A stretch of 64,000 nt of DNA from assembly GCA_026770025.1 (NCBI GenBank), contig JAMXDE010000005.1:2604001-2668000 (forward strand), written 5' to 3'. This DNA comes from Craspedostauros australis. Its lineage: Eukaryota; Bacillariophyta; Bacillariophyceae; Mastogloiales; Achnanthaceae. Position numbers and translations under genes: made by a program. Below are positions 32,772 through 60,390 of this stretch, one piece after another. Every line of letters begins with the position of its first letter. Within the stretch, counting starts at the first letter, position 1. The notes beneath the pieces were generated by a model. The model saw only the letters and a list, made by a program, of their open reading frames with translations. It ran no database searches and was not told the DNA's origin.

Positions 32772-33588
32772 TGGAGACTATCCGTGCGTACGTACGGACA
32801 TGTCATGCACTTCTAACGTTTAGTAGAGCGTAGCCGAAAGAGAAAACATGATACTCGTGGTGTATAGTCCCATACAGCTAGCTCGTCCAGATTGCCAGAC
32901 TGATACGAGTATGTTTCACACAGATTCAGTTGAACAACGAGTGCGGCACGAGCTACTCTTGTTGCAGCGCTTGGGTTCGCATACATTTAGGGTTAAGTAC
33001 ATACGATCTCGCAGAGAAGTTGAGATGGGTTGAGAGTGTTGAGAGTTGCTCCTCCTCATTGCTCTGCCAAGTACTCGTGCATTACTTGTACGGGCGTCGC
33101 TGAAGGCAACTGGCTGCGCAGTGGTCATTGCCGCTCGAGAGAGGTTGTCAAGTGCTGAGCGAGCGAAGTTGAGACGCAACAAATCCAAGATCAACCGCCA
33201 CACAAACGATGCGAGAGCCCACAGCAGAGAGGCATAAACAAACAAGATACGAGTACCAACAACAACAAGGACAACAACAGATAGCGAAGGAGACAGCTCC
33301 TGTCATCCGCAAACATCAACATCAATAGCAAAGATAGGAACAGCAACGGCACACAGTTGGTGTGCTGTGACGAAGCAACCACCCACCAACACATGCACAA
33401 CCATGTAGTCACGGAGGTACAAAGCAGAAGAACTCTTCCATCGTCTTTCGTGCGTTGCGCACAGTTGATTGTCCGCAGAGGACTACTCTCGTACAATACT
33501 CTACTCTACTCAGCTCAACTCAACTCTACGCTACTCTGCTCCACTACATTCAAGGAGGCCTCGATTATAGCTCTCTATCAATATCACA
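32772..33588. other. Intergenic region upstream of the interrupted glycosyltransferase-like gene
   Basis: About 820 bp; no gene seen. A CTACT/CAACT pentamer tract (about 33498-33545) lies shortly before the ATG at 33589. Confidence 0.5.
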
Positions 33589-33698
33589 ATGAGGATGCCG
33601 ACGACGCATGCTGCAGACGATCCTCCACAATGTCGTCCGCAAGATCGAAGCAGCCGGCTGAGAGGACCAGCGACGCAGCCATCCAGAAGACTCAATGA
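33589..33698 (+). pseudogene. 5' part of a glycosyltransferase-like gene interrupted by a LINE
   Basis: ATG at 33589 is the first start after an in-frame stop (33568). It opens a frame encoding a hydrophilic, Arg-rich N-terminus that runs to the LINE insertion at 33698/33699. Skipping the LINE and one copy of the 18-bp duplication, the frame continues without a stop into 43141-44434. The two pieces total 1404 nt, that is 468 codons including the stop. The joined product would be a type II protein with its cytosolic tail encoded here. In this haplotype the reading frame runs into the element instead. Confidence 0.68.
33681..33698 (+). repeat. 18-bp target-site duplication, left copy
   Basis: ATCCAGAAGACTCAATGA, identical to 43123-43140. 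The bases on both sides of the two copies differ, so the duplication is exactly 18 bp. Confidence 0.93.
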
Positions 33699-33897
33699 TA
33701 ATAATAACCACAATGACTAACCCAAGAAAGGGGTGCCCCGAGGGCTTTAGGCTCGCCCGACCGCGACGCACGGCCACGGCCAGGTCGAGCATTACAAACA
33801 AGAGCGCCTGCCACGCCCACTCACTAAATCCAGACGACCACCGTGCCTAGGGCGCCGGACCTGAGACCCGTCCCCGCCAAACGGCCGCCTTGCTACG

Positions 33898-33992
33898 GGC
33901 CCACGGCCCCAGCCGAAGGCGATCGGCCTGCACCCGAGCTGCCGGAGGCGGCCCGGGTTCGGGCCCGATCGTCTTCGGCTGGGGCTGGGGCC
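33898..33992. other. Hairpin in the LINE 3' UTR
   Basis: Bases 33907-33926 pair with 33965-33984 over 20 bp with one G-T-type position. Imperfect pairing extends outward (GGGCCC arms) and inward. It may be the 3' recognition structure for the element's reverse transcriptase; that is inference. Confidence 0.7.
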
Positions 33993-34024
33993 CACTCACG
34001 TGCCGACACGGGAAGCGCGTCACC

Positions 34025-37000
34025 TCAATCGCCCACCATGCCCAGCCGAAGGCGCTCTGCCCTGCACAGGCCGCCGCAGGCGGCCTGTGCTCGGGCTGGA
34101 GCGCCTTCGGCGTCTGTATCGTCGACCACAATGCCCCGATAGTCGCCATCGTCCTCCCTGCTGTACCATGCAAACTCGCCTGACCCTCCCGTATCTGGTG
34201 GATTCGAGCCGACCGCACTGCCGCCGGAGTCCGCCGCCTCCACAGCGACATTGTCCGGGGCCCGTGCACGCACTGCGCGCACAAACCGAAGCCATGCTCG
34301 TCTCGTGTCAGCCCCCGCCAACGGACTAGGTGCAGCACCACTCCCGGCCACTGCCAAGTCGCACCCCTCCCACCCACTGAAACCGTTGTGTCTCTCCGTG
34401 ACCTCCTCTAGCTCCTCACGTCGCGCACTCATCGCGGCGAGGACTGCCGCCTCCGCTTGCTTAGCCTGATTACGACACCGCCACATGCTGTGCACAAAGC
34501 GCCAACCTGCCAGAACCGCGTCGCGGGCCCAGGACTCCACGGTGTAGAAACGCCGTCCCGACCCGTGCTCCACGAACCACCTCTGTTGCTGCTCACACCA
34601 ATCTCGCGGTATCCAGCCCATGAGAACGGGCCACCATCGCACAGGAACCTCCTCCTGGAAGCCCTCCCTCACAGCACGGCCACAGAACCCCCGAAGACTT
34701 GAGTAGACCAAGCTGACAAGCGGACCACTCGTACCGATGGTCTCCAACTCCTCCACGTACTGTTGAAAGCACTCCTCCCAGCCTCCTCCTGAAGCTGAAC
34801 ACCTGACCACATGCATAACGGACTCGGCCTGCCCACACCACGGGCACCGCTCTTCGGCGCCGTACTGCTTCAGCTTGACGCCGACCCCGATAAAGCCCGT
34901 GGACATCTTTGCCACAAACAGCCGCTGCTTCCAGGATGCTCTCGCACATGCACTTCGGCGCCCGTGGGCCTCAATAGAGCCGCTGTCCTGTCGCACTCGC
35001 CCCATTTTCTTGTCCCAATAGGTCTCAACCGCCCCGCCTACCACTGCATCATGTATGCCTGCGGCCGCCCAAGACGACTTCATGTCTCCCACGTACAACT
35101 TCCAGGCAAATGAGCCGTCGCTGCGCCACTGGGGTGGTGTCTTGTGCTGCATCTTGTCCCAGTACTTTTTGGCCTCCGAATCGCAGTGGACATTGAGAAG
35201 CGCCCATTGATCCAGCACTTCCGACTGGTCGTCCTGGTGCCCTCGCACCCACCGGAAACGCACCGCCACAGCCAACCTCCGACGCAGCGCCTTGATATGA
35301 TCTAGCATATCGAACGACGGCCTGCCCACATGTGCCACTCCATCCCTGCTGTTCTCCATCGCCTTCATCCCGTCTAACCCTATCACTACCGGTCCTGGTC
35401 CGAGGTCGCCGCCCCTTTCCAGCTCCACGAGCTCACGCAGAACCCCAGCCACTCCAGCTAGTTCACTTCGGTACGCCGACTGCACTTCCCTTGCCCCTGG
35501 CACTACGTTGCACCCCGTGCGCTGCACCCCGGAGTCCATGATGTGTAAGACGTAGGCCGACGTCCCAAATCCTCGCTTGAACGAGCCATCACTGACCGCC
35601 ATAAGATCCCCTCTGCGAATGGCCGCTCTCAGTTCCGCGTCTGACGCATCGCCCGACACCTGGTCCCGCTCCCAGGCTTGATTTGAACCGTCGGGCTTGT
35701 CGCGCGGAGTATTTGGCACTGTCTCCCCTATTCGTGGCGTTTCTACCACTGCGAGCACCACCCCATGGGGGTTCACACACTGGACGGAGGAGCGCCGGGC
35801 ATGCGTAGGCAGGCGTGCGCTCACCTCGTTGGTGGCTTGGAACTCCGCCCTTCTTGCCCTCCGACCTTGCGTCCTGCGCCACACTCGGAAGCCGGAGTCC
35901 AACCGCTGCCATGCGACACCGTCGTCATTGGGCCGTCGCCACCACAACCACCCCCTGTCATCCCGCAGCCACGCCTGCATTCGTCGTCGTAAGCGCAGAT
36001 GGCGGCCCTCCGTCAATCCTTCAATCCACTCTTGCCACAGCAGCCAGTGTTTGCGGGTAAGCTTCCGTGGCACGCGAGGGCGCCCGCTGGATCCCTGGGT
36101 TCCCGCCTGAACTCCGTCAAAGGCCAGTCGCATGATGCTGGTACCATCCGCTGTCACCATATCCGCAAGGGTAACCACCCCCAGTTGCATGCGGCATTCA
36201 TTGAGCACCGCCTTCTGCTTGGAGCTATACCCCTGACAGCGCCAGCTGTCCAGCAAGAACACATCTCCCACTCGTTGTCTCTCGATTGACACCCCCGTCT
36301 CCACAATGGAAACACCGAAGCGCTGGGCGTTCGACCACACTTGGGTCACCCACGTCGGCGTGATGTGGCCCTTGCATTCGGCAAAGCTTTGCTGGAAAAG
36401 TGGTCCGCCTCCGGCGGTCTCAAGCTTGGTTTGTTCGATCGACAGCTGGATCATTCGGCCTGTGATGGAGCCTGTGTTCACCTCATGAGCCATCGACTGT
36501 ATTTGCACCGACAGCTGCCAAACCGCGGGGTTGCGCATCCCAATCCCCCCATGGGCCCTGGGCCCGTAAAGCACAGCTCTTGGGAACGACCGGGCCACAC
36601 CCCCTCGGGGAAGGGCCTTAGTCCAAATCGGCGCGTATATGAAGTCCCACTGCCGTTGGGTAAGAGTGATTGCCTCCATGGGGTATTCCAACGTCTTAGT
36701 AATCCTCGTAGTGATTGCCATCCACACCAAATCTTGTCGCAGGCCTCCGGAAACCACTTTGTCCGCAAAGTCGTCGGCCTTCCGCCTCAGGTATCGCACC
36801 TGTGCCTCTGAAGTACCCTCCATGTTCATGAATACACCCAGAGTTTGTTCTGACTCGCGTGGGTCGAGCCTCCGCAGCTCCGTTTGGATCCCTGCCGCAT
36901 CCCGCACTCTCACCTGGGCTGGAGTCGCTCGGGCCGCTTGCATCCTCCACCCTCCAGACCTGTACTCAAACGACAGACCCCACCAGAAGCTTTTGGCCGG

Positions 37001-40000
37001 CACCAAGGCTCCTCCTGTTGCTCGGAGAACCCCTTCCCAATCTGTGAGCGCTGCCTGAGTTCGTTGTGCCACGGTACTGAAGTGCTCATTTGGTTGCGAG
37101 ATCATCAAATCCGCATCATCAACAAAACTCAAACCCACCAGGCTGACTTCCTGACCGCTAAGGGCCGACTTGAACCGCGCTCCGTGTTGTTTGGACCGCA
37201 TTGCTTCGAACATCGGGGAGCTTATAGCTGCCCAGGCCGCCGGCCCGCAGCCGTTTCCTTGAGCCAGCCCTTGCATCGGCGTCCACCCTGTATTGCCGTA
37301 CGAGCGATCTGACACTCCGTATGCCGTCCTGACGTGGTGTCGCGCCTTCTGTAGGGTGCCAAACATCGACCTCACCGCTGACCTTCGCCCCCCAGCATGC
37401 ACCATGGCCATGGAGGCCACACTGTGGACCACCCGATCATAGCACGACTTGGCGTCGTTAGAGCAGATTGCCCCGTCTTGTCGTTTTTGGCGCATCACAT
37501 CCACCACCACCCTTTTGCACAGGGCTGCGGTTGACGCCTTGTGGCCTTTTCGACTGCCGAATTGTTCTGTGGCCATGCGATTGTTGCTTTCAGCTGTAAC
37601 CATGAGGTCCCTTCCCAGCTTCTTATTGTTCATGTTGAAGGCCGGGTGGAAGAGCTGAATGGTCCGCATCTTGGTGACGTCGAATACTCCTGCTTTTTTG
37701 AGGATTTGGAAGTCTGTCATCACCGTCCACGATGCTGGGGTGAATCCTGTTTCGTATGGTATCCTGCGCAACCTGCAGTCAATGGCTGCCAGACCTTCAT
37801 GTTCCGCCGCCGCCTTAAAATGCCCGAAATGCGGTGCCGATGGCTCCGACGCTGTTCTCTCTTTCTGTTTTGCCCAGCCTTCGACATGGTCCTCGATGGT
37901 AAATGTGGAATTCGGGACCGCCGATGGTGTAAGCCCCACCTGAGACAACAGCATCCGCGGATACATGTCCTCCTGTACCGTGGGCTGCCACTCTCCCTTA
38001 TACACGGCATCGGCTTCTTGGGTGTCGGCCAAGAAACCAAACCGGCTGCGGAGACGTCCGGTCGTAAACGGGGTACCCACTGTCTGATGGAACCTTCGCT
38101 TGTTTTCTTCGATGCAAGCCACTTCGATGGTATGTTTTGTATCACACACTGTGACATTTCCGTCGTCGTCAGTAAGCGTGACCTTGGTAGCCAGGGTTTG
38201 CTTTGGTTTCAGGCACGCCTTTAACCTCCGGTTGTCTCGGATCTGTCGTTCTCTCGCCCTGCGGACGTGGCTAGGGGTGCTCTCAATGGCCGTCCCCCAT
38301 TTGGCTGCTTCTTTCTCTCCTTTGTCCCTCATAAAGTCATCACGCATCTGGGATGCACGGGGCTTGGCCTCTTTGTAGGCTTTGCGTGCCTCAACCAATC
38401 TGGTTGCCACTTCTGCTGGCCCCAGTTGACGAGGTCGCTGGATCCCAAGCCTTTTGGATAACCGACGGATGAGCGACGAGCTGATGTGTATGTTGCTGTA
38501 CTTTTTCTGCACTGCTGTCCACAGTCTCACTGTGTCTCGTAGTCGTTTCAGCATTGGTGACCACTCCAGTGCCCCCATCTTGAGCTTCCTACACTCGCGC
38601 TCGGTCTCCATGCGCAGTTTGTCCATACCCTTGTCGATGCTGTCGTATTCGGTGGCCAACTCCGCCGTCACGGTACCCTGCAGCCTCACTGCTTGCTCCA
38701 ACTCTTCCATCCTCCAATGAAATCCCAGCTGTTGCGCCTTCTTCCAAAGGGATTCCTGGTACGCTTGCACTGCCGCTTTGTCCGCCATTCGCAGGCGTCT
38801 TGGTTCCACGCCCACCAATGGGTTCAATTTGCCAATCGCACTTGACTCCTTGATGTCGATCCATATCATGCGGTGGTCGGAGTGGATGGCCTCGCCAAAA
38901 CCTGCGTACCCGGCCGCTGTGACTTCAATGTCCTTTGTCGCATACAAGCCGTCGATCGGGACGTGGGTCTTGTTGCGGTGCTGGGTAGCCTGTCGTTGAT
39001 GCCCTCGATGCAGCTCAGTGATGGCTTCGCGCATTCCGAGTGCCTCGAACATCTCTGCGCAACTGCCTTTGGCGACGTCCTGATTCGCGTCGATGCCCAC
39101 TATCACGCCGTCTCCTTCTTGTTTCCATTCTTGGATTGCTTGTGCCAGGTCGAGTAGCATCGCTTCTCTTGGTTCCCTGTTGTCTCCTTGTTCTAGCAGG
39201 TGGGTACGCTGTTGTGCCCACGTGGAAGTTGGCCTAGAGGACGCGCACGCCCTGTAGGCGGCCACCACCCGGATATGTTTACCCTTCCGTCCCTCAATTC
39301 GTTGCCAAACCCATCTTCCCAGGCGGCTCAGGTCCTCGCCCTCATCCACCACCCTCTTGGACAAGCCGTTGGCAGTGACTATGCCCGTGCCTCCAAATTG
39401 CACTTTGTTTGTTGATGCGCAATTGTGGTTGTAGGATGCCGTCGCTTTGGCTCGCATTTTCCAGTGACCCACTCGTCGGGCCCAGGAGTCTCCTTCCTTC
39501 ATTGCCCTCCAGTTGAGCCCTATCTCCGCCAGCATCAGCACGTCAATGTGCCTTTTCTGTATCTCTTCTCCGATTTGCTTGTTTTTTCCTTTCCATGGCT
39601 CCACCGGCAATCTTCCAATGTTTTGGAACGCCAGTCGTATCGCTCCTGTGTCCGGAGTTCTCATTCTGTTGCCGAAAATTCCTTCCTCTGGCATTTCGCG
39701 TGCCCTTTGTGGTGGGGATCTGTCATGGGTCCTCGGTTCGCGCGCTTCTCGTTCTGTCGACTCGTCCCTGTCAGTCGTTGTGGTTTCAGTTGGCGGGACT
39801 CGCTCTGTTCCTCTCCTTTCCCTCGTTGAGGCTGTTTTACGGCGGTCGTCGTTATTTGTATTACCAGTTAGTGACGAACAATGGCCCGCCGGTATGTTAG
39901 TTGATCTCACCTCTTTTGTCATCGTTGGTGGCTCCTTTGGCCTTGTGTTGCATGTGTTGTTGTATCCTCTGTTTTGTTCTTCCTGTGTCTCCTTGCTCGG

Positions 40001-40114
40001 TGGCTCCTTTGCCTCTGGTTGCGTCCGCCCTCCCTCCTTTTTACGCCCTCGCACCAGCTGGGACGACTCCCTTTTCGGGTGCCCTCCCTTGTTTGTCTCC
40101 AAAGGGACTCTCAT
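34025..40114 (-). CDS. LINE ORF2: endonuclease, reverse transcriptase, RNase H
   Basis: 2029 residues. A hydrophilic N-terminus is followed by an APE-type endonuclease (about 159-421) with 'FQNIG' (Asn165), 'LMLAEIG' (Glu197), 'GIDANQD' (Asp342, Asn344) and 'HSDHRMIW' (411-418). The reverse transcriptase follows, with 'SNDAKSCYDRVVHS' carrying the first catalytic Asp, 'GLAQGNGCGPAAWA', and the FVDDADL box (about 996-1002; Phe in place of the usual Tyr/Phe-Ala of FADD/YADD). An RNase H domain starts near 1505 ('AVSDGSF', then 'SAYRSELAGV', 'IGLDGMKAM' and 'VRGHQDDQ'). A CCHC-like motif 'CPWCGQAESVMHVVRC' lies near 1755. The stop is at 34025. The start ATG overlaps the ORF1 stop (ATGA), so translation by termination-reinitiation is likely. 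Confidence 0.93.
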   Translation of the reverse strand: MRVPLETNKGGHPKRESSQLVRGRKKEGGRTQPEAKEPPSKETQEEQNRGYNNTCNTRPKEPPTMTKEVRSTNIPAGHCSSLTGNTNNDDRRKTASTRERRGTERVPPTETTTTDRDESTEREAREPRTHDRSPPQRAREMPEEGIFGNRMRTPDTGAIRLAFQNIGRLPVEPWKGKNKQIGEEIQKRHIDVLMLAEIGLNWRAMKEGDSWARRVGHWKMRAKATASYNHNCASTNKVQFGGTGIVTANGLSKRVVDEGEDLSRLGRWVWQRIEGRKGKHIRVVAAYRACASSRPTSTWAQQRTHLLEQGDNREPREAMLLDLAQAIQEWKQEGDGVIVGIDANQDVAKGSCAEMFEALGMREAITELHRGHQRQATQHRNKTHVPIDGLYATKDIEVTAAGYAGFGEAIHSDHRMIWIDIKESSAIGKLNPLVGVEPRRLRMADKAAVQAYQESLWKKAQQLGFHWRMEELEQAVRLQGTVTAELATEYDSIDKGMDKLRMETERECRKLKMGALEWSPMLKRLRDTVRLWTAVQKKYSNIHISSSLIRRLSKRLGIQRPRQLGPAEVATRLVEARKAYKEAKPRASQMRDDFMRDKGEKEAAKWGTAIESTPSHVRRARERQIRDNRRLKACLKPKQTLATKVTLTDDDGNVTVCDTKHTIEVACIEENKRRFHQTVGTPFTTGRLRSRFGFLADTQEADAVYKGEWQPTVQEDMYPRMLLSQVGLTPSAVPNSTFTIEDHVEGWAKQKERTASEPSAPHFGHFKAAAEHEGLAAIDCRLRRIPYETGFTPASWTVMTDFQILKKAGVFDVTKMRTIQLFHPAFNMNNKKLGRDLMVTAESNNRMATEQFGSRKGHKASTAALCKRVVVDVMRQKRQDGAICSNDAKSCYDRVVHSVASMAMVHAGGRRSAVRSMFGTLQKARHHVRTAYGVSDRSYGNTGWTPMQGLAQGNGCGPAAWAAISSPMFEAMRSKQHGARFKSALSGQEVSLVGLSFVDDADLMISQPNEHFSTVAQRTQAALTDWEGVLRATGGALVPAKSFWWGLSFEYRSGGWRMQAARATPAQVRVRDAAGIQTELRRLDPRESEQTLGVFMNMEGTSEAQVRYLRRKADDFADKVVSGGLRQDLVWMAITTRITKTLEYPMEAITLTQRQWDFIYAPIWTKALPRGGVARSFPRAVLYGPRAHGGIGMRNPAVWQLSVQIQSMAHEVNTGSITGRMIQLSIEQTKLETAGGGPLFQQSFAECKGHITPTWVTQVWSNAQRFGVSIVETGVSIERQRVGDVFLLDSWRCQGYSSKQKAVLNECRMQLGVVTLADMVTADGTSIMRLAFDGVQAGTQGSSGRPRVPRKLTRKHWLLWQEWIEGLTEGRHLRLRRRMQAWLRDDRGWLWWRRPNDDGVAWQRLDSGFRVWRRTQGRRARRAEFQATNEVSARLPTHARRSSVQCVNPHGVVLAVVETPRIGETVPNTPRDKPDGSNQAWERDQVSGDASDAELRAAIRRGDLMAVSDGSFKRGFGTSAYVLHIMDSGVQRTGCNVVPGAREVQSAYRSELAGVAGVLRELVELERGGDLGPGPVVIGLDGMKAMENSRDGVAHVGRPSFDMLDHIKALRRRLAVAVRFRWVRGHQDDQSEVLDQWALLNVHCDSEAKKYWDKMQHKTPPQWRSDGSFAWKLYVGDMKSSWAAAGIHDAVVGGAVETYWDKKMGRVRQDSGSIEAHGRRSACARASWKQRLFVAKMSTGFIGVGVKLKQYGAEERCPWCGQAESVMHVVRCSASGGGWEECFQQYVEELETIGTSGPLVSLVYSSLRGFCGRAVREGFQEEVPVRWWPVLMGWIPRDWCEQQQRWFVEHGSGRRFYTVESWARDAVLAGWRFVHSMWRCRNQAKQAEAAVLAAMSARREELEEVTERHNGFSGWEGCDLAVAGSGAAPSPLAGADTRRAWLRFVRAVRARAPDNVAVEAADSGGSAVGSNPPDTGGSGEFAWYSREDDGDYRGIVVDDTDAEGAPARAQAACGGLCRAERLRLGMVGD
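34043..34113. other. Second hairpin, inside the ORF2 3' end
   Basis: Bases 34045-34056 pair perfectly with 34100-34111, and 34065-34075 with 34079-34089 around a 3-base loop. It shares the GCCGAAGGCG arm with the UTR hairpin 130 bp away, and it is within the last codons of ORF2, so it constrains the protein C-terminus. Confidence 0.7.
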
Positions 40115-43002
40115 GCTTGGCCTGCGACCCTCTCGTCGCTGGCAGTGGAATCGTTGGTTGGCGCAGTTGTTCCTTGCTGCGTTGTTGGCCTCACGCTTGG
40201 CCCTTCTTTCCTCCCCTTTGGTGCACCCTTCTTTGGTCGGGCCTTCTTCACTGGGCTAACCGCTCTTCTGGGTTCCTCACTCTCAGGGATGCTCCCCTTT
40301 CTGTTGTTCTGAAGTGCTGACTTCTGGTGTTTCTTGGTTTGGCCTCTTGTTTGCATTGTGCGGGTGGTTAGCTGGGTTGATGGTTCCACCGATCCGTCGT
40401 CTGACGAAATGTCCACCAGGTTGACTACCTCGGCATGGTGTGCATCGTCTCCGCCATATGGAGTTGCAGACTCCATAGACACATCTGACATGGATCCGTC
40501 GTCCGCTTCGCCCACGAAATCGTCGTCTTTGTTCCGGTCTCTGAGCGCTTGCAAGGATTGGGTTGGTTGGTCGACGTCCCTGCCTTCCGGAGTCTGCCCG
40601 AGCCGATCCTGTCCTGGTTGGGCTTCCACGTCGTTGGTGTTGGCGCGTTGTGGCTGCTCGGCTACACTGGGGCCCAGCAGAGCTTCCATCCATTGGGCTC
40701 TAGCCTGCGGGTCAATCACTTCCAGCTTTTTCATCGCCTCGCCAACCACTCGCATTGTCTCTTTTTTGGCTTCCGGACACTGCGATTTCATCGACGTTAT
40801 GGCTGATTTCAATGAAACGTCGTCGCAGTTGTGCCATCGTCGCATCACCCCTACCGATCCGTGGTCTCCATCCATGGTCTTCGGGACCGTACCAAAGTCA
40901 ATGGCGAAGGTCATCTTGGGTTGTGCGTCCTCCTGTTGTTCTGTGTCTTCTTCTGGACGTTGAAGTCCCATGCTGGCGTACCACTCGTCATCCACCTGTT
41001 TCTTGAGGATATCTCTCTCCCAATCCGCCTTGATAATCTCTCCGTGCATGTTCATTTCGTAGCTGGTGTTGGCGTCCCAGATATAGTCCGTGAACCAGGT
41101 TGCTGCTTTGCCTCCGCAGTACTTGTATATGACAGTGGGAAGGAGCGGGATAATCATGCTTGCCTCATCTGCCACCTCCTGACTATAGACAAATACCGTG
41201 TCCCCCCAATTTCTTCCGTTCTCCACCGCCAAGAACAGCGCTGACCCTTCTTTGTCTCCTGATGTTGACATCAGCTTAGAGAGGACGTTGCGCAGGGATA
41301 CCTTGTTCTTGGGCTCCACATAGTCGAGTCCGTGGATGAAGGAAACGATGGTGGTCTTCGTGCCCTCCAAGAACTCCTTCTGCTTCTTTTTGTAGAGCAT
41401 CGCGTTGCGTCTGTCTTCATGAGTTGCTGGTCGTTGTTCATCCGTGAGGTCCGAAATGAAGCGGAGCCGCTTGCCTAGGATTCTGTTCTTTCCTGCCGCA
41501 AAAAGCTTGCCCATAATCTGCTCGCACTTGATGGAGTCCTCCTTACTCGCCAAGATGTGAGCTGCGTAGACCTGGTCCTCTTTCTTGATTTTCTCATACT
41601 TGTCCAGTTTGATTGCTTGCATCCTGATGCCGACCTTGATCTTTGCTTTCACGACGTCTTCCAGGTTGTTGATGGCTTCAGTCAGGTCGTTGCAATTGGT
41701 GGATCTATGACTCGCGCAAAACCACCCGACTGGCACTTCTTCCCTTGCTTGAACAGTGCATTTGGACAAGATGATGTCGTTGTCTGACAGCTGTCCATCG
41801 TCCTGCAGTTCAGCCCACTCCTTGTTGTGTGAGAAGTAGAAACGGCACCAGGTTTGTTTCCCTGCCTTTGTGTACATCTTGTTCACGTAGTGTCTGATCT
41901 TGGAGGCGGAGGTCACTCTGTCACTGCTTGCAGTAAGTCCTTGACCCTGACCGTCCCACCTGTGGATAACAAGGTCGGGGTCCTGGGTGAATAAGTGTTC
42001 CATGACCATTGCTAGTGCTTCGGTCACCTCCTTCTCCACGGCCTTGTCCTTGCCTTTCAGAGTAGGGCTTCGAAACGTGCAGTAGGTACTGAACTGCCTG
42101 CCCAGGGATTCATTGACGTTGCGTTTGTGGTCTCTTTTCACCATGGGTTTGCTCAGGAAGAACTGGTTGGCTGGAAGCAAAACTGCCCCGTCTTTGCCTG
42201 TTGTCATTGGTACCGATTTCAACGCCTCTGCGAATGTCGGGGAGCCCTTCTTGTATGGGTTGCTGGTACAGCTCACTGGTTTTCCGGCGTCTTTTGTGTT
42301 GATCGGGCTTGGCTTCTTCTTGTTGGTTGTGGCCTTGGGTGCTGACGCGGTGTCCTTGTCCTCTTGTCTACCGTTGGTGTGCTGGTTCATTGGCTTGTTT
42401 GACTTTGCCTTTTCAGTGTCGCCGATTCTACGTCGCTTCTCCAGTGATTCCGCTGGGTTGGCTGTGTTGACCTTGCGAGCTGCTATCCAAGGGTTGGTCA
42501 TGATGCTGCCCATGATGTTCCCTTCTTCCCAGAACACTGGTGGAAACATGTCTGCTTTCGTGGCCAGCAGCCTTGCTTCCATCTGTTGGACCTTCTGGTT
42601 TGTGGCTGCGTCCCAGTGACAAGCTCTGCCTTTCTTGAACACATCGACCCATGCTTCCATCGACTCCAGGTCCCCTCTTTCACAGTCAAGGTGGCTCCGA
42701 ACGACCCGCCATGCTGTGTTGACCGAGTCTCCTGCTCCTACGCATTCCGGATACGGCTTGGCGTTGCTCGTCGTCATCTTCCTTTTTGCCTCTGTCTCTT
42801 CCTCTGACGTCCACACCGCTTGCTTTTTAGCGATGCCGTTGTTGGGAATGCCCGAAATCGTAACTCCTCCGAAATTCACTTGTTTCTTGCGCTGTTTGCT
42901 GCGGGAGGGGTCACCATCGTCGTCCTTTGTCATTGGCGTCATGCTGGTCTTGTAAACACTCTGTGTCTTTTTAAATTTTATGCGTTTTGTCATTGTTGGC
43001 AA
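40111..43002 (-). CDS. LINE ORF1 protein, unusually large, no CCHC knuckle
   Basis: 963 residues, much longer than typical LINE ORF1 products. I see no CCHC zinc knuckle or clear RRM. Visible parts: Lys/Arg-rich N-terminus (1-70), a long mixed region (about 270-720) with 'FSTYCTFRSPTLKGK', 'WCRFYFSHNKEWAEL' and 'RLRFISDL', a Gln/Asp-rich segment, then 'EVVNLVDISSDDGS' near 870, which fits a SUMO-interacting motif (hydrophobic core followed by Ser/Asp), and a Lys/Pro-rich basic tail. Presumably the RNA-binding partner of ORF2. Its stop overlaps the ORF2 start. Confidence 0.85.
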   Translation of the reverse strand: MPTMTKRIKFKKTQSVYKTSMTPMTKDDDGDPSRSKQRKKQVNFGGVTISGIPNNGIAKKQAVWTSEEETEAKRKMTTSNAKPYPECVGAGDSVNTAWRVVRSHLDCERGDLESMEAWVDVFKKGRACHWDAATNQKVQQMEARLLATKADMFPPVFWEEGNIMGSIMTNPWIAARKVNTANPAESLEKRRRIGDTEKAKSNKPMNQHTNGRQEDKDTASAPKATTNKKKPSPINTKDAGKPVSCTSNPYKKGSPTFAEALKSVPMTTGKDGAVLLPANQFFLSKPMVKRDHKRNVNESLGRQFSTYCTFRSPTLKGKDKAVEKEVTEALAMVMEHLFTQDPDLVIHRWDGQGQGLTASSDRVTSASKIRHYVNKMYTKAGKQTWCRFYFSHNKEWAELQDDGQLSDNDIILSKCTVQAREEVPVGWFCASHRSTNCNDLTEAINNLEDVVKAKIKVGIRMQAIKLDKYEKIKKEDQVYAAHILASKEDSIKCEQIMGKLFAAGKNRILGKRLRFISDLTDEQRPATHEDRRNAMLYKKKQKEFLEGTKTTIVSFIHGLDYVEPKNKVSLRNVLSKLMSTSGDKEGSALFLAVENGRNWGDTVFVYSQEVADEASMIIPLLPTVIYKYCGGKAATWFTDYIWDANTSYEMNMHGEIIKADWERDILKKQVDDEWYASMGLQRPEEDTEQQEDAQPKMTFAIDFGTVPKTMDGDHGSVGVMRRWHNCDDVSLKSAITSMKSQCPEAKKETMRVVGEAMKKLEVIDPQARAQWMEALLGPSVAEQPQRANTNDVEAQPGQDRLGQTPEGRDVDQPTQSLQALRDRNKDDDFVGEADDGSMSDVSMESATPYGGDDAHHAEVVNLVDISSDDGSVEPSTQLTTRTMQTRGQTKKHQKSALQNNRKGSIPESEEPRRAVSPVKKARPKKGAPKGRKEGPSVRPTTQQGTTAPTNDSTASDERVAGQA

Positions 43003-43122
43003 CGTACGTTCACGAGTTCCGAAACCGTTGGCGATAACCGTAGTTTCAGTACTGACTCTTACGTGAATTCAAAACCTACTGGGTCTACGTACGCCTTTTT
43101 AATTCAGCGATTCCAGAAGAGT

Positions 43123-43140
43123 ATCCAGAAGACTCAATGA
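43123..43140 (+). repeat. 18-bp target-site duplication, right copy
   Basis: Identical to 33681-33698. It lies directly after the LINE 5' end and before the resumed gene frame. Confidence 0.93.
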
Positions 43141-44434
43141 AGGAGGAGAGAAGAAGAGAAGATGCCTGCATCTTCGCGGCAGGGTGGAACTCATTCTCTT
43201 CGCGCTCATCATCATGTACGGTGCCATTTCATTTGCGACGTTCGCAATTCACATGCAGCAAGGATCGCCGAGTCGACGCGGTGGTTGGCATCATTTGGAG
43301 CCTCTAGCTGTGCCGTCACGGTTGTCGCTGCCGTCGCTGTCTTCTTCAACCACATCATTGCCACAGAAAGCTACATCAGCATCATCATCAGCCGCAGCAG
43401 CAGCGGACACAACGAATAGTGGCACTCGCAACCGGACAAACCAGCTTGGAGATGGCCCGGTCTTCTACAACGCGTTCGTGCCATCCTCCGACGATCCCAA
43501 CTACAACGCCACGCATCTGCATCAGATATTCCAAGAGCAGTTTCTGCAGATCAATCAGACGACACGTAGCAACACAACCGTGTTCTATACCTTGATTGGC
43601 AACAACCCATGGCAAGATATCGTTGAATCGTATTGCGGCGAACGCTGCCAATTGAGGGAGTTCATGGACAGCGGAGATGAGGTCCACACCTTGCAGGCCA
43701 TGTGGGATTACTGCCAACCGTACTCCAAAGCCGACGACGTGCTCGTCACGTACCTCCACGACAAGGGCTCCTTCCACCGAACCCAGACGAACGAGAAGTC
43801 ACGGCGGATCTCCACCAAGGCGGCGCTGGCGTGCCGGCAAGAGATGGAGCTGGCGCCCAGAAAGTGCAACGTCTGTGCCAGCCAGTTCCATATCATCCCG
43901 CAGTACTTGGGCAATGCCAACATGTGGACAGCGACGTGCTCCTACCTGCGCGGTCTGCACCCGCCGACCAGCTACTCTGCCGCCATGCAGAGCATGTACG
44001 ACGACACCATCTTCCATCCGGTGCACAACAAGACGGCCAAGCTGGCATGCTTGCGACCATTCCACATCGTCGACAACCATCTGGGCTTGGGACGCTACTC
44101 CTTGGAACGCTGGGTGTGGTCCCACCCCGACGTCAAGCCCTGCGACGTCCTGCAGGTCAGCATGTCGCAGCTCCCGGATGAATCCTTCCTGCAAACCACG
44201 ACGCAATGGCAGCCGGAGCTCAAACGGGCGCCGCACAAGCGTCCGCGGCAGATCGGCGTGCAGCACGGTTTCATGAAGTCATCCTTCGCGCGGTTGGAGG
44301 GACGGCTCTTTGAATGGGACAGCATCTACCACAAACGGCCCGCCAACACGTCGTGGGTGTGGCGATGGTACAAAGGATTTTACAATGGCACCGCCGCATG
44401 GATGGAGGAATGCGCGAACGAAGTTCAGCCATGA
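43141..44434 (+). pseudogene. 3' part of the interrupted glycosyltransferase-like gene
   Basis: The frame resumes in phase with 33589-33698. In joined numbering it gives a basic patch and a TM anchor (about 53-73), a Ser/Thr-rich stem, and a lumenal domain with 'FYTLIGNNPW', 'DDVLVTYLHDKGSFH' (His-Asp-Lys-Gly near 243), 'CNVCASQFH', 'LGNANMWTATCSYLRGL' (near 293) and several Asn-x-Ser/Thr sites. The HxKG and G-N-x-W pair resembles a family of putative glycosyltransferases of bacteria and protists; I could not confirm the family. The first in-frame ATG in this fragment is 43214, which would give 406 residues with a shortened anchor, so a truncated product cannot be excluded. Confidence 0.65.
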
Positions 44435-52390: not shown

Positions 52391-52396
52391 CCGATT
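52391..52396. repeat. 6-bp direct repeat, left flank of copia copy A
   Basis: TCCGAT directly before the left LTR; the same six bases directly follow the right LTR (60340-60345). Ty1/copia duplications are usually 5 bp. Confidence 0.75.
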
Positions 52397-53188
52397 GTTG
52401 GCAAGTTCCGCTCACGGTAACCTACGATCGTGGAAGATGGTATTGGTTGATAGTCGTCTGTTTGCTATTTCATTACGTTGGCACTCCGATACTCTCGGTG
52501 TCCGTTCGTTCTCTTGCCCGATGCTCTCGGCGCGTTAATCTGTTTCGTAGATTCGGTCTCCGACTATGAGTCGGTACGTGAGATCCTCTCTCGCTCCTCT
52601 CTGTATTCTCTCTCTCTCTCTCTCAACATCGTGTGCTCATGCTACACGATACTCCGTGTTCGATGCGTGCTCCGCATCCGACACTCCGTTCATTCAGTAC
52701 TGGCTTCTACTTCATGAGTACTTACCATTTGAAGTTCACCTTCAGTATCCATGATCTTCATGGGTCATCGTATCTTCGCCTCCTGCTCTGACTTGGAGAC
52801 AGCTGTCGACGTGGTGACATGTTGACATCCTGTCGACGTCAGTAGGCGTCCTTCTGCTCTCCAGATGTCACGTTCCATTGGTGATGCAGTAGTCTGTCAG
52901 ATGACATCGTCATCTGAGGTTTAGTTGGGAAGTACCTCGAGATTCTCTTGGTACCATTGATGCATGGACGGACGATCTTCTGATTCTTCCAGAAATCGTT
53001 ATTTGCAAATTTCCTCCAGAAATCTTGCCCCTTTTTGTGTGTTCCATTTCCCCTGTAATTCTGACGAATCACAGCATACTATCGACACGAGTATAGTTAT
53101 ACCGTCCAAGTGCGTATGAGAGAATAGCGGGTGAACGATGCACATATACACGTACATCTTGACATATACTCACATGTACATCTCGACA
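52397..53188 (-). repeat. LTR, copia copy A (3' LTR in element sense)
   Basis: 792 bp, TGTTGG...CGACA on the plus strand (5'-TGTCGAGATG...CCAACA-3' in element sense). Nearly identical to 59543-60339 apart from a few substitutions and a CT-microsatellite length change. A purine-rich AGGAAGGG (polypurine tract) lies directly inside it at about 53189-53196. Confidence 0.93.
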
Positions 53189-53208
53189 CCCTTCCTGTGT
53201 GCATTCGG

Positions 53209-56200
53209 TCACTCGAATGTTCTCGATGTGTCAAGGTACGACTTCTCGTGTTCACGTTGCAAGTCGGCCTTGATGTTCTTGGTGAATCCGTCGCTTGTGT
53301 TATGCTCGGATTTGACGAAAATGATTTCGATGGTTTTGTTGATTACCATGTTCCTCACGTAGTGATGGCGCACGTCGATGTGCCGCGATCGTTGGGATGT
53401 TGATGGGTTCTTGGCGATGAAGATCGCCCCGATGTTGTCCACGCGGACCTTGATCGGTGTCTTCACTGGGACGCCCACACTTTCGAGTAGCTGCATGACG
53501 AAGAAGATTTCCTTTGCCGCTTCGGAAAGGGCAACGTATTCTGCTTCGGATGAGCTGAGTGTGACGGCCTTCTGTGCCTTGGATCGCCAAAGGATTGGTA
53601 CCTTGCACAGGTATAGGATGAACCCTCCTACGCTGATTCTCGTGTTCTTGTCTCCTGCATATTCGCTATCGCAGAAGAGCTCCATGTCCCAGCCGTCGTC
53701 GTCTGGACGTGCTGGATGGATCTTCAATCCATAGTCCTTTGTATCGATCACATACTTGATGATCCGATACATCTCCTTCATTGCAGCCTTGGTGGGCCCG
53801 ATCAATACCTTGGAGAGTTCCCTCACAGGGTTCGCGATATCCGGTCGCGAGTGCTTGATGAGGAAGAGTAGCATACCGACGCCTCGGCGGTATTCGGCAT
53901 GTTCTTCCGGTCCGACCTTTTGCAGTCCGTTATCTTCGGATGGTCGTACGATGATTTGACCCGGGGTTCCCGGTGTCCCATAGCGTTGCATCTTTTCAAC
54001 CTTGGTTCCGAACTCTTCGATGAGGTGTCGGATGAGATGTGGTTGACGCAATGTTGCTCTAGTCTTGTCATGGTTCAGTTCAATGTTGCAGCTGAGGTAG
54101 TCTCCGAGTCCACGCTCGATTGTCACCTTGAACTTGCTGCCTTGGATATCCTTCAGGAAGGTTTCCAGTGCCTTGGAATCTCCGCAACAGAAGCAATCGT
54201 CCACGTAGATGGCCACGATCATGCTTCCTTCGTTCGTCTTCCTGTAGAACAGGCACGGGTCTGCTGCGCTCTGTTCGAAGTTGATATTCTTGAGGGTCGA
54301 TACCAACATCTTGAACCACTGCCTGGCGCTCTGCACAAGTCCGTAGATTGGCTTGTGTAGGGTCAGGGCTTCGTCTGGTTGATGATCCATCCCGTTGGGA
54401 CAGTTCATATAGATCTCCTCGTCGAGGTCTCCATGTAGGAATGCCGTTACGACATCGACGAGTGCGCAGTCCATCTTCTTGATTAGCATGATCACCATCA
54501 TGACCCGATAGGTCACGTCATGGATGACGGGTGAGTAATGCTCTTGGAAGTCTACTCCTGCGACTTGTGAATAGCCACATGCAACGAGCCGCGCTCGATG
54601 TGTGCCGTCACGCTTCAGCTTGAAGACCCATTTGCATTTGCAGCATCTGCGGCCGCGTGGGATGGCGTCTCGTTTAATCTTGCTATACACCTTGCGTGTA
54701 TCCATGGAGTCGAACTCCTTCTTGATGGCTGCTCGATATCCCTTTCGATGGATAGGATCTGGGTGATTGAAGGCTCCGTCGAACGTTGTAGGTTCGATGT
54801 GCTTCTCTGGTTCCTTGTTCTCGTCCTGCATCGACAATCCGATGTCGATCGCTGGTCTCTCGGTGATGATTGCATTCATTCCGTATATTCCAGTTGTGCT
54901 ATGGTGAGTGATCTCGATCTCTTCATCTTCGTCTTCGATTTCTTCGTCATCTGTAGTTTCGTTGTTGGAATCGTCGATCATCTCGTCGCTGAGTTCGTCA
55001 TTCGCCTCGTTGGATGATGAATCGCTCTCATAGCCTTCTTCCTTTCGACCTCGTTCGTTGAAGTCTGCGAGCTCGCGCAGAGCTCTGGGAATACTCTTCC
55101 CTGTAATTGACTTGGGATTAACTTCTCCCTTCCTGCCTCGTGCTTCGTGACGTCGGATCCTCTCCTTTCTAGCTATGTCACGCTTGTTTGGTTTGCTTGG
55201 TGGAGATCTTGATGGTGTGTCATGTGTAGACCTCGCTGGTGTGTTCGGAGGAGTGACACCTGTCTCGTCATCGTCGGCTTCGTCGCCGGATGGTAGGATT
55301 TCGTCATCCTCATGATTGGATTCGCTCCGATCTTCCTCGTCATTCTGGATTAGTTGAGTCACTACTCCGTCGTCCTCATTATCCTCATCATCGCTGTCTG
55401 ATAGGATGTAGTATCTGTTGCTGTCAGCGAAAGATACTCTCTTCGCTTCCGATGTTTGACGCGTTGCCGTCCTTGGCGTTGCTCCCTTCCGTCCGATGGT
55501 TGTGAAGCCGTCTGCGTCCGTTGTTCCTGTTTCATTGGATATGTTCGGTGCTGGTGCCCAGCCACGGAACTGTCCGTATGATTGGTTGAGCCACTTGATG
55601 TCTCGTGAACAGATGAGTGACTTGGTCGATGGTCTGTACATGTTGTAGACCCCTGATGCATGTTGGTGTGCATATCCAATGAACACCATCTCTTCTCCTC
55701 TATTCTTGAGCTTGGCGGTAATCCCGCCGTAGGTGGTCTTCACGACACCCACCTCTCCAAACGTGCGGAGTGCATCCGCATATGGTGGATCGTTGTCGAA
55801 GAATTGTCGATGTGGTGACTCCTTCTGGTTCTTCGCTACGGTGATGTTGGCGATGGCGGTGGCAGTGCTAGCAGCTGCTGCCCACAGGCCATGCCTATAC
55901 TCTTCGTCTAGCTGTGCTCCGTTGAGCATGGAGCGGATCTTGGTGTAGAGGTACGCGAACTTGCGTTCCACTCTGCCGTTCTGTTGCGGCGTGTTCGATG
56001 CCGTGTATTCGAATTTCACGTTGAGTCCTGCATCGATGAGAATATCCTCCGTGGATTTATTCTCTCCGCTGTTGTCACCTCGAAAGATGATCTGTTGGTC
56101 ACCAGTCTGTGACTTGATCGTCTGGACGAATCGTTTGATGTATCCTGGCTGATCACTTTTGTTCTTGAGAAAGAAACTCCAGCAGTGATCCGTGCAGTCG

Positions 56201-59200
56201 TCCACGATCAGGGTCCAGTAGCGTTTATCTCCGAAGCTTATGTGTTTAGTGTAACTAATGTCAATGAAGAGCCGTTCGCCGCAGCGAGTTGCTCTCGGAA
56301 TGGTTGCCTTCGGAATATTCTTCACTCTTGCGTTCGCGACCGCGCAGTCGCGACATACCGGCATCTCGCCGATAATCTTCCATCCATACTGAGCGGCCGT
56401 CCGCTTCATGGTCTCGAGTGGCGCGTGGCCGAGCATTCGGTGCAGGTTCACCGTGCTGATCTCCTTGGATGGATTCTTGACGATGGCTGTGCAAGCCTTG
56501 TCGTCGTCTGTTGGCATGATGGGATGCATCTGCACTCCCGTGATGAATCCGTTGGATGTGGGGAAGACTCGGTCGAATACGATCTTCATTCCGGATCCGT
56601 TGATGATGTCCATCAGAATGCCGTTGTTACCAAGCTGGTAACCGTTGTACAGAGCCTTGTTCGTGGAGAAAAGGTTCACCGCCATCTTGGGTGTGTACTT
56701 CACATCATCGAGCCGGATGATGTGGCCAGTGTTGTTTCGCTGCTTGACTTTCAAGCGAATGGATCCCATCTTGGGAGAATCCAGCTTCGTGCTGTCTCCC
56801 ACTTGGACGAAGGACTTAATGTGCCGCACGTTGAAGAGGGCGGCGTCTGAATTGACGATGTGACACGAAGCTCCGCTGTCGGCGAGCCAGGTGTCCTTGT
56901 TGACCTTGTCCTTGTACTTGGTGCTCAACTCGTGGAGTTGCTCCACAGCTGCCGCAGCTATCTCGTCGTCGAAGTTGCCATCATCATCGTCTTCGTGAAC
57001 TCCATCTTCGTTGTATGGAGGATGATGATCTCCGTCATCCATGTCATCGGGTAGTTGCGCGTAGTCCGATGGAATCGTACTGTTCCGATGAGATCCTGTG
57101 GCTGGATCGTATGGATGGACCCGTGGTCGTTCGCGTAAGAGTACGCGCATACATCCTCCAAGGATGTAATGAAGATCCGTCTCTGGGATCGTCTCTGTAT
57201 CGGCTGCTTCCAGTATGCGATTGATCACAACCGAATTGGTGAGAATCTCTTCAATCGATCTGAAGTTCTCGGATAGGATGGATCCCATCATGTTGACCCA
57301 TATTGGTCTCAGCACTCCTTGTGCGACTCCTGGGAACAGGCTCACTCCTGCTTCCATCACTGCATCGAAGATGAGTTGCTTCTGGATCACCAATGCTGTT
57401 TCTGTTGCATATGGGACGGTGTCGTGACGATGGAGGTAGTTGGACCTGTTGGGATCCTCGATTGGTGGGAAGTCAATATTCCCTGGGTAGACGACGCGCT
57501 CGTTTGGATTGAAGCTGTCGTCTGGATGATTGTCGTCCTCGGATTCGTCGCTGTCATCCTCGTCGAAGATGCCCGATCTGTTGTTCCCCGCCGCTGGAGG
57601 AGGCGGCGCCGCGGCGCGGCGCGTTTCGCCTTGATTGATGAAGGTTCCCGTTCTCTCGTATCTCCCAGCTTGAGGAGGAGGCAACTCGTCGCGGTTCGCC
57701 TCGTCGTCTTCATCTGCACCGTCCTCGTCGGCATCGTCGTCGTCGTCGTCATCGCTCATGCCCTCTTCGATGTCGCTATCGTTGGCCTCGTCCATCTCAG
57801 CTTCGTCGCCGTATGAACCGATCAGGTCGTGCGCGTTGAAGCAGCATTCGTAGCTCACTTCGCGTCTTGGATCCACCTCGTGGATGATGGGCTCCTCGCT
57901 GAGCCACTCCGGAACGATCTCATCGTCCTGTACTTCGTCGTCACTTCCGACGTACTCGAAGTTATCGAAGAAGGAGTCTTCGATGTAGTCGTCGGACACC
58001 AACATGCAGAGCGGCATGTCCTTTGCTGAGAGTACCATCTCGTGCCCGCTCTTGTCGTGTCCTTCCGTAGCCGCGTTGGCTTGTTCGTTGTTCTTCTTCT
58101 CGTTGAACTTCTTCTTTCGACACTCCGCCTCGCGGTGTCCGAAGATGCCGCAGTAGTTGCACTTCCCCTTGAAGCCGCTTCCCTTGTTGCGTTTTCCGTT
58201 CATCTTGTTGTTGTTGTTGTTGTTGTTTTTCTTGTTGTTCGGTTTCTTGCGTTCTGGGCAATCGGCGGATCTATGGCCATACACGCCACAGTTGTGACAA
58301 GTACCCTTGAAGTTACCGGTGCTTGTGAAGCCGGTGTCGTTGCTCTTCGTGTTACTGTCTTGGAAGTCGTCGACGTATGCTTTGCCTCCTCTGTGAGTGG
58401 CGTATGCAGTGCGGAGTACTCCTCTGATCGTGTTGATGGTGATCAGTTCCGGATTGAACGTGAGTTGATGTTGGAAGTTCACGACGTGGGTTTTGTATTC
58501 CACGCTCACTGTGCTGAGAATCTGCATGATCATTTCCTCGTCCGTGATCTCGTACTTGACATCGTGGAGACGCGATCGTAGACTCTCGAGTTGCGTGATG
58601 TAGATGTCGGGGTCCGTGTCTCTCTTCATCTTTTCGTTGTTGAATTGGCGCTTGAGTTTGATCTTCGTTACTGCGTCGGATGGTCGGAACTTCTCCGCGA
58701 GAACGTTCCACGCTCCGTGTGCGTCTCCTTCGGGGTAGTCGACGGAGATGCATTGGTTGATGTACTGGATGGCTTGCTTGCCCTTTCCTTTCTCTGCATC
58801 CATCATGAGGATCAGATCGCTGAAGCAGTCGCATCCCAGCTCGTAGATCTCCTCCATCGCTTCCTTGTCTTCATCGGCGGCTGCCGCGATCTCGCTCACT
58901 GTTGGCACCTTGGTCTTGCCCAACATCACGTCTCTCGTCTTCTGTGCACGAGCGTATGCCTTTGCTTGGGACTCCCATGCGCTGTAATCTTCTTGTTCAC
59001 CGCTGAACATCGGCGCCTTGATGCGTCGCTTGTTCACGTTGGCTGATGTCGCCATGTTGATTCGTTGTTTCGTCGTTGGTGCGCTCGCGCCCTTGATTTC
59101 CGTCTGTTTCTGTGTTGTCACTTTTTCGAATTTCGCCTGTTGTTGCGCGGAGGTTGTTTTCGTCACAAATTCTCCTCCTGGTGGTGTCTCACTTTTCACA

Positions 59201-59460
59201 CCCTGTTTGGCTGTGCGAATGCTCTTCGTCACACCAGTCTCCTCTTGCTTGATCGCCTTGAGAATGCTCTTCTCCTTACGATGTAGTCTTGCAGACCGTT
59301 CTTCTTCGGTCTCGTCGATCGCGCTTGCGTCTGCGCCTGATAGGACAGTAGTCGCGGCTGCTTCCTTCTCTTGTCGTGGTGGAGTCTCACTCGCACCTTC
59401 TTCTCTCTTGATAGTCGGATTGGACAGAGGGATCTCTTTCAATTCCTCTTCCTCGCTCAT
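53209..59460 (-). CDS. Ty1/copia Gag-Pol polyprotein
   Basis: 2083 residues in one frame. Gag-like helical region (about 150-370), then two CCHC knuckles at about 388-401 ('CHNCGVYGHRSADC') and 433-446 ('CNYCGIFGHREAEC'). An unusual acidic linker of about 400 residues follows (450-850), with an apparently folded insert near 690-790. Protease 'WLADSGASCH' is near 856. Integrase: zinc-binding 'HRMLGHAP' near 1003, catalytic core 'IVDDCTD', 'FRGDNSGEN' and 'NTPQQNGRVER' (about 1086-1165). RT: 'VAIYVDDCF' near 1750. RNase H: 'LFCDSEYAGD' near 1935 and 'LSSSEAEYVALSEA'. Copia polyproteins are usually about 1400-1500 residues; the excess is mainly the acidic linker. No frameshift or stop. Confidence 0.94.
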   Translation of the reverse strand: MSEEEELKEIPLSNPTIKREEGASETPPRQEKEAAATTVLSGADASAIDETEEERSARLHRKEKSILKAIKQEETGVTKSIRTAKQGVKSETPPGGEFVTKTTSAQQQAKFEKVTTQKQTEIKGASAPTTKQRINMATSANVNKRRIKAPMFSGEQEDYSAWESQAKAYARAQKTRDVMLGKTKVPTVSEIAAAADEDKEAMEEIYELGCDCFSDLILMMDAEKGKGKQAIQYINQCISVDYPEGDAHGAWNVLAEKFRPSDAVTKIKLKRQFNNEKMKRDTDPDIYITQLESLRSRLHDVKYEITDEEMIMQILSTVSVEYKTHVVNFQHQLTFNPELITINTIRGVLRTAYATHRGGKAYVDDFQDSNTKSNDTGFTSTGNFKGTCHNCGVYGHRSADCPERKKPNNKKNNNNNNNKMNGKRNKGSGFKGKCNYCGIFGHREAECRKKKFNEKKNNEQANAATEGHDKSGHEMVLSAKDMPLCMLVSDDYIEDSFFDNFEYVGSDDEVQDDEIVPEWLSEEPIIHEVDPRREVSYECCFNAHDLIGSYGDEAEMDEANDSDIEEGMSDDDDDDDADEDGADEDDEANRDELPPPQAGRYERTGTFINQGETRRAAAPPPPAAGNNRSGIFDEDDSDESEDDNHPDDSFNPNERVVYPGNIDFPPIEDPNRSNYLHRHDTVPYATETALVIQKQLIFDAVMEAGVSLFPGVAQGVLRPIWVNMMGSILSENFRSIEEILTNSVVINRILEAADTETIPETDLHYILGGCMRVLLRERPRVHPYDPATGSHRNSTIPSDYAQLPDDMDDGDHHPPYNEDGVHEDDDDGNFDDEIAAAAVEQLHELSTKYKDKVNKDTWLADSGASCHIVNSDAALFNVRHIKSFVQVGDSTKLDSPKMGSIRLKVKQRNNTGHIIRLDDVKYTPKMAVNLFSTNKALYNGYQLGNNGILMDIINGSGMKIVFDRVFPTSNGFITGVQMHPIMPTDDDKACTAIVKNPSKEISTVNLHRMLGHAPLETMKRTAAQYGWKIIGEMPVCRDCAVANARVKNIPKATIPRATRCGERLFIDISYTKHISFGDKRYWTLIVDDCTDHCWSFFLKNKSDQPGYIKRFVQTIKSQTGDQQIIFRGDNSGENKSTEDILIDAGLNVKFEYTASNTPQQNGRVERKFAYLYTKIRSMLNGAQLDEEYRHGLWAAAASTATAIANITVAKNQKESPHRQFFDNDPPYADALRTFGEVGVVKTTYGGITAKLKNRGEEMVFIGYAHQHASGVYNMYRPSTKSLICSRDIKWLNQSYGQFRGWAPAPNISNETGTTDADGFTTIGRKGATPRTATRQTSEAKRVSFADSNRYYILSDSDDEDNEDDGVVTQLIQNDEEDRSESNHEDDEILPSGDEADDDETGVTPPNTPARSTHDTPSRSPPSKPNKRDIARKERIRRHEARGRKGEVNPKSITGKSIPRALRELADFNERGRKEEGYESDSSSNEANDELSDEMIDDSNNETTDDEEIEDEDEEIEITHHSTTGIYGMNAIITERPAIDIGLSMQDENKEPEKHIEPTTFDGAFNHPDPIHRKGYRAAIKKEFDSMDTRKVYSKIKRDAIPRGRRCCKCKWVFKLKRDGTHRARLVACGYSQVAGVDFQEHYSPVIHDVTYRVMMVIMLIKKMDCALVDVVTAFLHGDLDEEIYMNCPNGMDHQPDEALTLHKPIYGLVQSARQWFKMLVSTLKNINFEQSAADPCLFYRKTNEGSMIVAIYVDDCFCCGDSKALETFLKDIQGSKFKVTIERGLGDYLSCNIELNHDKTRATLRQPHLIRHLIEEFGTKVEKMQRYGTPGTPGQIIVRPSEDNGLQKVGPEEHAEYRRGVGMLLFLIKHSRPDIANPVRELSKVLIGPTKAAMKEMYRIIKYVIDTKDYGLKIHPARPDDDGWDMELFCDSEYAGDKNTRISVGGFILYLCKVPILWRSKAQKAVTLSSSEAEYVALSEAAKEIFFVMQLLESVGVPVKTPIKVRVDNIGAIFIAKNPSTSQRSRHIDVRHHYVRNMVINKTIEIIFVKSEHNTSDGFTKNIKADLQREHEKSYLDTSRTFE

Positions 59461-59530
59461 TCAGCCTGCTGCTCTTGAATGATGTTCGTCTTCCTCGCAC
59501 GATACGATTCGCGGGCTCGCCCTGATCTAT

Positions 59531-59542
59531 CGTTTATAAACG
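59531..59542. other. Perfect palindrome at the primer-binding position of copia copy A
   Basis: CGTTTATAAACG directly adjoins the 5' LTR (element sense), where a tRNA primer-binding site would begin. No TGG-type primer site follows the LTR. Confidence 0.7.
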
Positions 59543-60339
59543 TGTTGGCAAGTTCCGCTCACGGTAACCTACGATCGTGGAAGATGGTATTGGTTGATAG
59601 TCGTCTGTTTGCTATTTCATTACGTTGGCACTCCGATACTCTCGGTGTCCGTTCGTTCTCTTGCCCGATGCTCTCGGCGCGTTAATCTGTTTCGTAGATT
59701 CGGTCTCCGACTATGAGTCGGTACGTGAGATCCTCTCTCGCTCCTCTCTGTATTCTCTCTCTCTCTTTCTCTCTCACTATCGTGTGCTTGTGCTACACGA
59801 TACTCCGTGTTCGATGCGTGCTCCGCATTCGACACTCCGTTCATTCAGTACTGGCTTCTACTTCATGAGTACTTACCATTTGAAGTTCACCTTCAGTATC
59901 CATGATCTTCATGGGTCATCGTATCTTCGCCTCCTGCTCTGACTTGGAGACAGCTGTCGACGTGGTGACATGTTGACATCCTGTCGACGTCAGTAGGCGT
60001 CCTTCTGCTCTCCAGATGTCACGTTCCATTGGTGATGCAGTAGTCTGTCAGATGACATCGTCATCTGAGGTTTAGTTGGGAAGTACCTCGAGATTCTCTT
60101 GGTACCATTGATGCATGGACGGACGATCTTCTGATTCTTCCAGAAATCGTTATTTGCAAATTTCCTCCAGAAATCTTGCCCCTTTTTGTGTGTTCCATTT
60201 CCCCTGTAATTCTGACGAATCACAGCATACTATCGACACGAGTATAGTTATACCGTCCAAGTGCGTATGAGAGAATAGCGGGTGAACGATGCACATATAC
60301 ACGTACATCTTGACATATACTCACATGTACATCTCGACA
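59543..60339 (-). repeat. LTR, copia copy A (5' LTR in element sense)
   Basis: 797 bp, TGTTGG...CGACA. It differs from the left LTR by a handful of substitutions and the CT tract. Confidence 0.93.
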
Positions 60340-60345
60340 TCCGAT
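60340..60345. repeat. 6-bp direct repeat, right flank of copia copy A
   Basis: TCCGAT, matching 52391-52396. Confidence 0.75.
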
Positions 60346-60390
60346 GTAGCCGTTGAGAACGAATTTTGGACTACCACGACTCGTCAGAGA

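Follow-up and report, generated by a model that had tools for sequence, protein, structure and literature searches.

A full-length LINE inserted in a putative type II membrane-protein gene of the diatom Craspedostauros australis

A reading frame in Craspedostauros australis appears to be divided by a mobile element. This raises the question of whether a gene was broken at this locus, how recently, and what it encoded. The window, that is the whole 64-kb stretch of DNA that was analysed, corresponds to C3:2604001-2668000, and the genome searched comprises 74.8 Mb in 90 contigs. The window contains two 18-bp copies of ATCCAGAAGACTCAATGA, one spanning 33681-33698 and the other 43123-43140, both on the + strand. 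No third site was found in the 64-kb window with up to 3 mismatches on both strands, and two matches were obtained in 0/100 shuffles. Clearly, the duplication is far beyond chance. The interval between the two copies, 33699-43122, is 9,424 bp long. These limits are confirmed by full-length copies of the element on C4 and C1, which begin and finish at the same bases. The claim of the preliminary description that the 18-bp target-site duplication bounds the element exactly is borne out.

The element is a LINE on the - strand, antisense to the host gene, with its 3' end TTATTATTA at 33699 and its 5' end ACTCTTCTGGAATCGC at 43122. It has a reverse transcriptase ORF, no long terminal repeats, and copies at varying sites with a duplication and a constant 3' end. 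A scan of the window for repeats of 40 nt or longer (seed 16) listed none at the ends of 33699-43122. Counted from the first ATG, ORF1 (40111-42993, - strand) encodes 960 aa, and it has no Pfam match; the ORF as listed (40111-43002) opens with TTG. ORF2 (34025-40114, - strand) encodes 2,029 aa, including a reverse transcriptase with FVDD, and matched RVT_1 (PF00078) at E 3.1e-8 with 34.0 bits, above the cut-off of 29.6. A match to Exo_endo_phos (PF03372, E 0.0098) gave 16.1 bits, under the cut-off of 24.5. The string SDGS is present in ORF2, as are DANQD and SDHR in that order, which may point to an apurinic-type endonuclease domain. A search of PDB sequences with ORF2 gave no match at E 0.01. 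The ORF1 stop and the ORF2 start overlap as ATGA (40111-40114), an arrangement that suggests coupled translation. The complete ends, the open frames and the antisense orientation noted in the preliminary description all stood up, the ends being common to the C4 and C1 copies. Judged from sequence, the open frames indicate integrity; activity does not follow from them.

The 3' untranslated region (33699-34024, - strand, 326 bp) contains a long hairpin. Folding of the final 432 nt of the LINE (33699-34130, - strand), which include this region, gave a z score of -7.27, and 0/100 shuffles folded as well. Two long hairpins are predicted at the 3' end, one of them at 33897-33993, matching its own reverse complement. 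In this folding model the hairpins may be a recognition structure for the element's reverse transcriptase. At 9.4 kb the element is long for a LINE. LINE/Ambal elements are reported to be abundant in the diatom Pleurosigma (PMC12803021), which for the clade of the window LINE is a lead only. Copia-type sequence also occupies 52396-64000 of the window, where an element with an ORF at 53209-59460 is enclosed by two near-identical repeats, one beginning at 52396 and one at 59543. The repeat recurs at 61310-62034, a further RVT_2 frame follows at 62330-64000, and the stretch consists of nested or adjacent copia copies.

The genome was searched with the 9,424-bp element, and at least 32 stretches were matched. 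The matches listed include the window copy, the full-length copies on C4 and C1, and a copy on C22 truncated at its 5' end, with 3,011 bp left. Others among those listed are relatives at 68-87% identity, and four are one hairpin matched against itself. All three full-length copies start with ACTCTTCTGGAATCGC and end with GTGGTTATTATTA at the same bases. The 29-base pattern of the 5' terminus occurs exactly at 7 genome places and at 9 with up to 2 mismatches; the 3' terminus occurs at 6 places with the same tolerance, and reversed controls gave 0. The C4 copy has a 16-bp duplication. The C1 copy has an 18-bp duplication after one extra TTA, read by eye at a site where the script test gave nothing. 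The C22 copy, with 3 differences in 3,011 bp, likewise has an 18-bp duplication after one extra TTA. The duplications differ among all four sites compared (window, C4, C1 and C22) and the 3' end is the same, which is what independent target-primed insertions leave.

Since nearly identical full-length copies occur twice more in the same assembly, the insertion or its junctions could in principle be an assembly artefact between repeats. Against this, duplications flank each copy and differ among the four sites, and the window copy carries a private base. We consider an artefact exceedingly improbable. At the 5' junction ATTCCAGAAGAGT beside ATCCAGAAGACT looks like a further duplication, but was rejected as target sequence, as ACTCTTCTGGAAT is part of the element's conserved 5' terminus. 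Chance or microhomology probably accounts for its likeness to the window duplication. Another LINE lineage, similar in length, is present at C2:650659-660035, C4:70847-80218 and C14:764325-773629. It is about 70-78% identical over the main stretches and has the same 5' terminus.

The copies were compared base by base to estimate the age of the insertion. Between the window and C4 copies 2/9,424 positions differ (680 and 8936), and between the window and C1 copies likewise 2/9,424 (680 and 2219). By this pattern each full-length copy has one private change. That of the window copy makes ORF1 codon 187 Leu, where the C4 and C1 copies encode Pro; the private change of the C1 copy replaces Ala by Val, and that of the C4 copy is silent. 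A substitution rate of 4.77e-10 per site per generation is given for Phaeodactylum (PMC6604790). At this rate, borrowed from another species, a single change over 9,424 bp implies roughly 2.2e5 generations, with a 95% Poisson interval of about 6e3 to 1.2e6. The true age would be lower if reverse-transcriptase copying errors or sequencing errors contributed. The right-hand host fragment is open over 416 codons, which fits a recent disruption. As its 9,424 bp carry about one private change, the earlier view that the insertion is recent is upheld. Recent mobility of this LINE is indicated by two more copies at other sites, which share its ends and have each gained about one private change.

The host reading frame was reconstructed by joining the flanks at one duplication copy. 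The product is 1,404 nt from ATG 33589 to TGA 44434, or 468 codons including the stop, with 0 internal stops, in agreement with the single frame proposed in the preliminary description. The element lies within codon 37 of this frame. The left fragment (33589-33698, + strand) consists of 36 codons including the ATG, plus 2 nt, would encode basic tail and contains the first duplication copy. The right fragment (43141-44434, + strand) would encode the end of the basic tail, a membrane anchor (from 43184), a linker and a GT-A-like domain, and ends with the stop TGA. An intronless reading can start only at 33589 or 33595, since TAG 33568 is the closest in-frame stop upstream of the ATG and no further in-frame ATG occurs until 43214. 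An exon spliced exactly to 43141, the outcome the preliminary description had set against itself, is unlikely because bases 43139-43140 are GA, not AG.

Is the left fragment coding? An ATG-open frame in the given phase arose in 22.1% of 5,000 left-flank shuffles, and in 4.6% when at least 110 nt was demanded. At 558 real window cut points the values were 35.5% and 10.2%. The open join as found thus has a chance frequency of 4.6-10.2%, which counts against the joined-frame reading. Codon scores were as low as that of the 36 left codons in 12/419 in-frame coding slices (7 ORFs) and in 184/390 open out-of-frame slices. The ATG frame scored lowest of the six frames of the left stretch; in the right fragment the true frame scored highest. 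The left 36 codons score like non-coding or out-of-frame sequence, and their coding status is uncertain.

This poor score would suit a gene in which the left codons are untranslated or intronic and the true first exon, further upstream, is spliced near the anchor. The LINE would then lie in the 5' UTR or an intron, and the gene may work. Five donor-like sites are present upstream, and directly before the anchor, at 43183, lies a pyrimidine-rich candidate acceptor, TGCCTGCATCTTCGCGGCAG, with pyrimidines making up 65% of its 17 scored bases. However, the remaining 8 acceptor candidates to the right of the junction have 0-41% pyrimidine, and with the element present splicing would need to remove an intron exceeding 9 kb. 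Furthermore, the joined frame yields a tail-plus-anchor protein without any intron. An upstream first exon is for us an unlikely explanation, and we prefer a frame that was continuous from ATG 33589.

With the element present, the frame from ATG 33589 runs for 43 codons before it meets a stop at 33718, and the first ATG available to the right-hand frame is 43214, which is inside the anchor. A promoter in the antisense 5' region of the LINE might express the right fragment from this ATG, from which 406 codons are open, as a protein of 406 aa lacking the tail and part of the anchor. The N-terminus left is weakly hydrophobic, however, with a hydropathy of 0.40 at residue 1 as against 2.34 for the whole anchor, and such rescue is most improbable.

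The joined protein has 13 R/K and 5 D/E in its first 51 residues, followed by an anchor from residue 52, with the strongest 19-residue hydropathy (2.34) at residue 55. The basic tail directly before the anchor, as described earlier, is thereby recovered. This short basic N-terminal tail with a single anchor is that of a type II protein, provided that ATG 33589 is the start, and on sequence grounds a Golgi type II protein with an N-terminal tail is plausible. Paralogues at E ≤0.001 were limited to one gene on C13 and one on C1, whether the window protein or either paralogue was the query. One stretch on C5, at E 0.118, was left out of the set. The C13 paralogue has a basic stretch and then a hydrophobic one, MKLPVRTRRLFFAMIAMVCFYG. 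Against the anchored reading, the hydropathy of that stretch is lower, at 1.45, and in the C1 paralogue, where the maximum is 1.16, no such anchor is evident.

The preliminary description called the protein glycosyltransferase-like. None of the three members (3/3) matched a named glycosyltransferase family in Pfam to E 10 or in NCBIfam and PHROGs to E 1, limits narrowed by HMMER filters, which drop most matches above about 0.1. Relatives outside the genome were not confirmed in viral contigs, with the protein or the three-member alignment, or among prokaryote genome contigs. Among PDB sequences the best phmmer match had E 0.79 and the profile gave none up to E 5; Foldseek found nothing at E 0.001 or better among viral models. 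The fold match of a low-confidence model of the C1 paralogue is GT-A-like, as is the order of secondary-structure elements. The modelled fold may support the glycosyltransferase label in part; the family searches do not. On the strand expected to carry DxD, as placed by this low-confidence model, the three family members have Y-x-H-x-KG, and H-x-KG would take the DxD position.

Genome-wide, the silicon transporter family PF03842 was matched 88 times (e.g. C11:710408-712021 and C2:977655-979259), and 28/88 cover nearly the whole model without a stop. Among 14 control genomes one had a match, and none was above the cut-off, so that by this family the genome is diatom-like. Other diatoms have a handful of silicon transporters, and 88 is many more.

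We have good confidence that a single recent target-primed insertion of an open-framed LINE broke a type II membrane-protein gene. A first-strand nick at the target would have been followed by reverse transcription primed at the TTA-tailed end, and a second-strand nick 16-18 bp away, with fill-in, would have produced the duplication. The host product would have been a type II membrane protein with a basic cytosolic tail, one anchor and a lumenal GT-A-like domain. By severing the start codon and most of the tail from the rest, the insertion would leave this copy without a normal protein. The LINE probably inactivates this gene copy.

A functional allele had been expected elsewhere. A 37-base pattern of the empty site gave 0 matches in the assembly with up to 3 mismatches. 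The right flank is single-copy in the assembly; so is the left flank, where four more matches cover only a CT-rich stretch at 33478-33545. Because the assembly may be collapsed haploid, neither presence nor absence of the empty allele in the population follows. Among the papers listed by literature searches none describes this insertion. The event is of an ordinary, already known kind, and is here unusually clean. Because both ends, the duplication, the sister copies and the private changes can all be read, the event can be given a rough date and the empty site is predictable with single-base precision. Were the insertion segregating, it would serve as a natural knockout for a so far uncharacterised membrane protein of a diatom, one with a modelled glycosyltransferase-like fold, and as evidence for recent LINE mobility in a diatom genome. 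A bolder combination is that the host gene represents a GT-A-like family not yet described, with H-x-KG in place of DxD, and that this member is now a segregating null through a presently transposing LINE. We hold it to be rather doubtful; if true, strains with and without the element would test the function of the protein directly.

Comparison with known systems places the element near LINEs with an apurinic-type endonuclease. It shares with them two ORFs, a reverse transcriptase, duplications of 16-18 bp, one 5'-truncated copy and a simple-repeat 3' tail. It differs in that the tail is TTA, not poly(A), the ORFs overlap as ATGA, and the endonuclease match is below its cut-off. The host protein departs from type II Golgi GT-A glycosyltransferases in lacking a named family match and probably in the H-x-KG read by all three members where DxD would be expected. 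It resembles them in the joined protein's predicted tail, single N-terminal anchor and linker, and may do so in the GT-A-like secondary-structure order and fold matches of the models.
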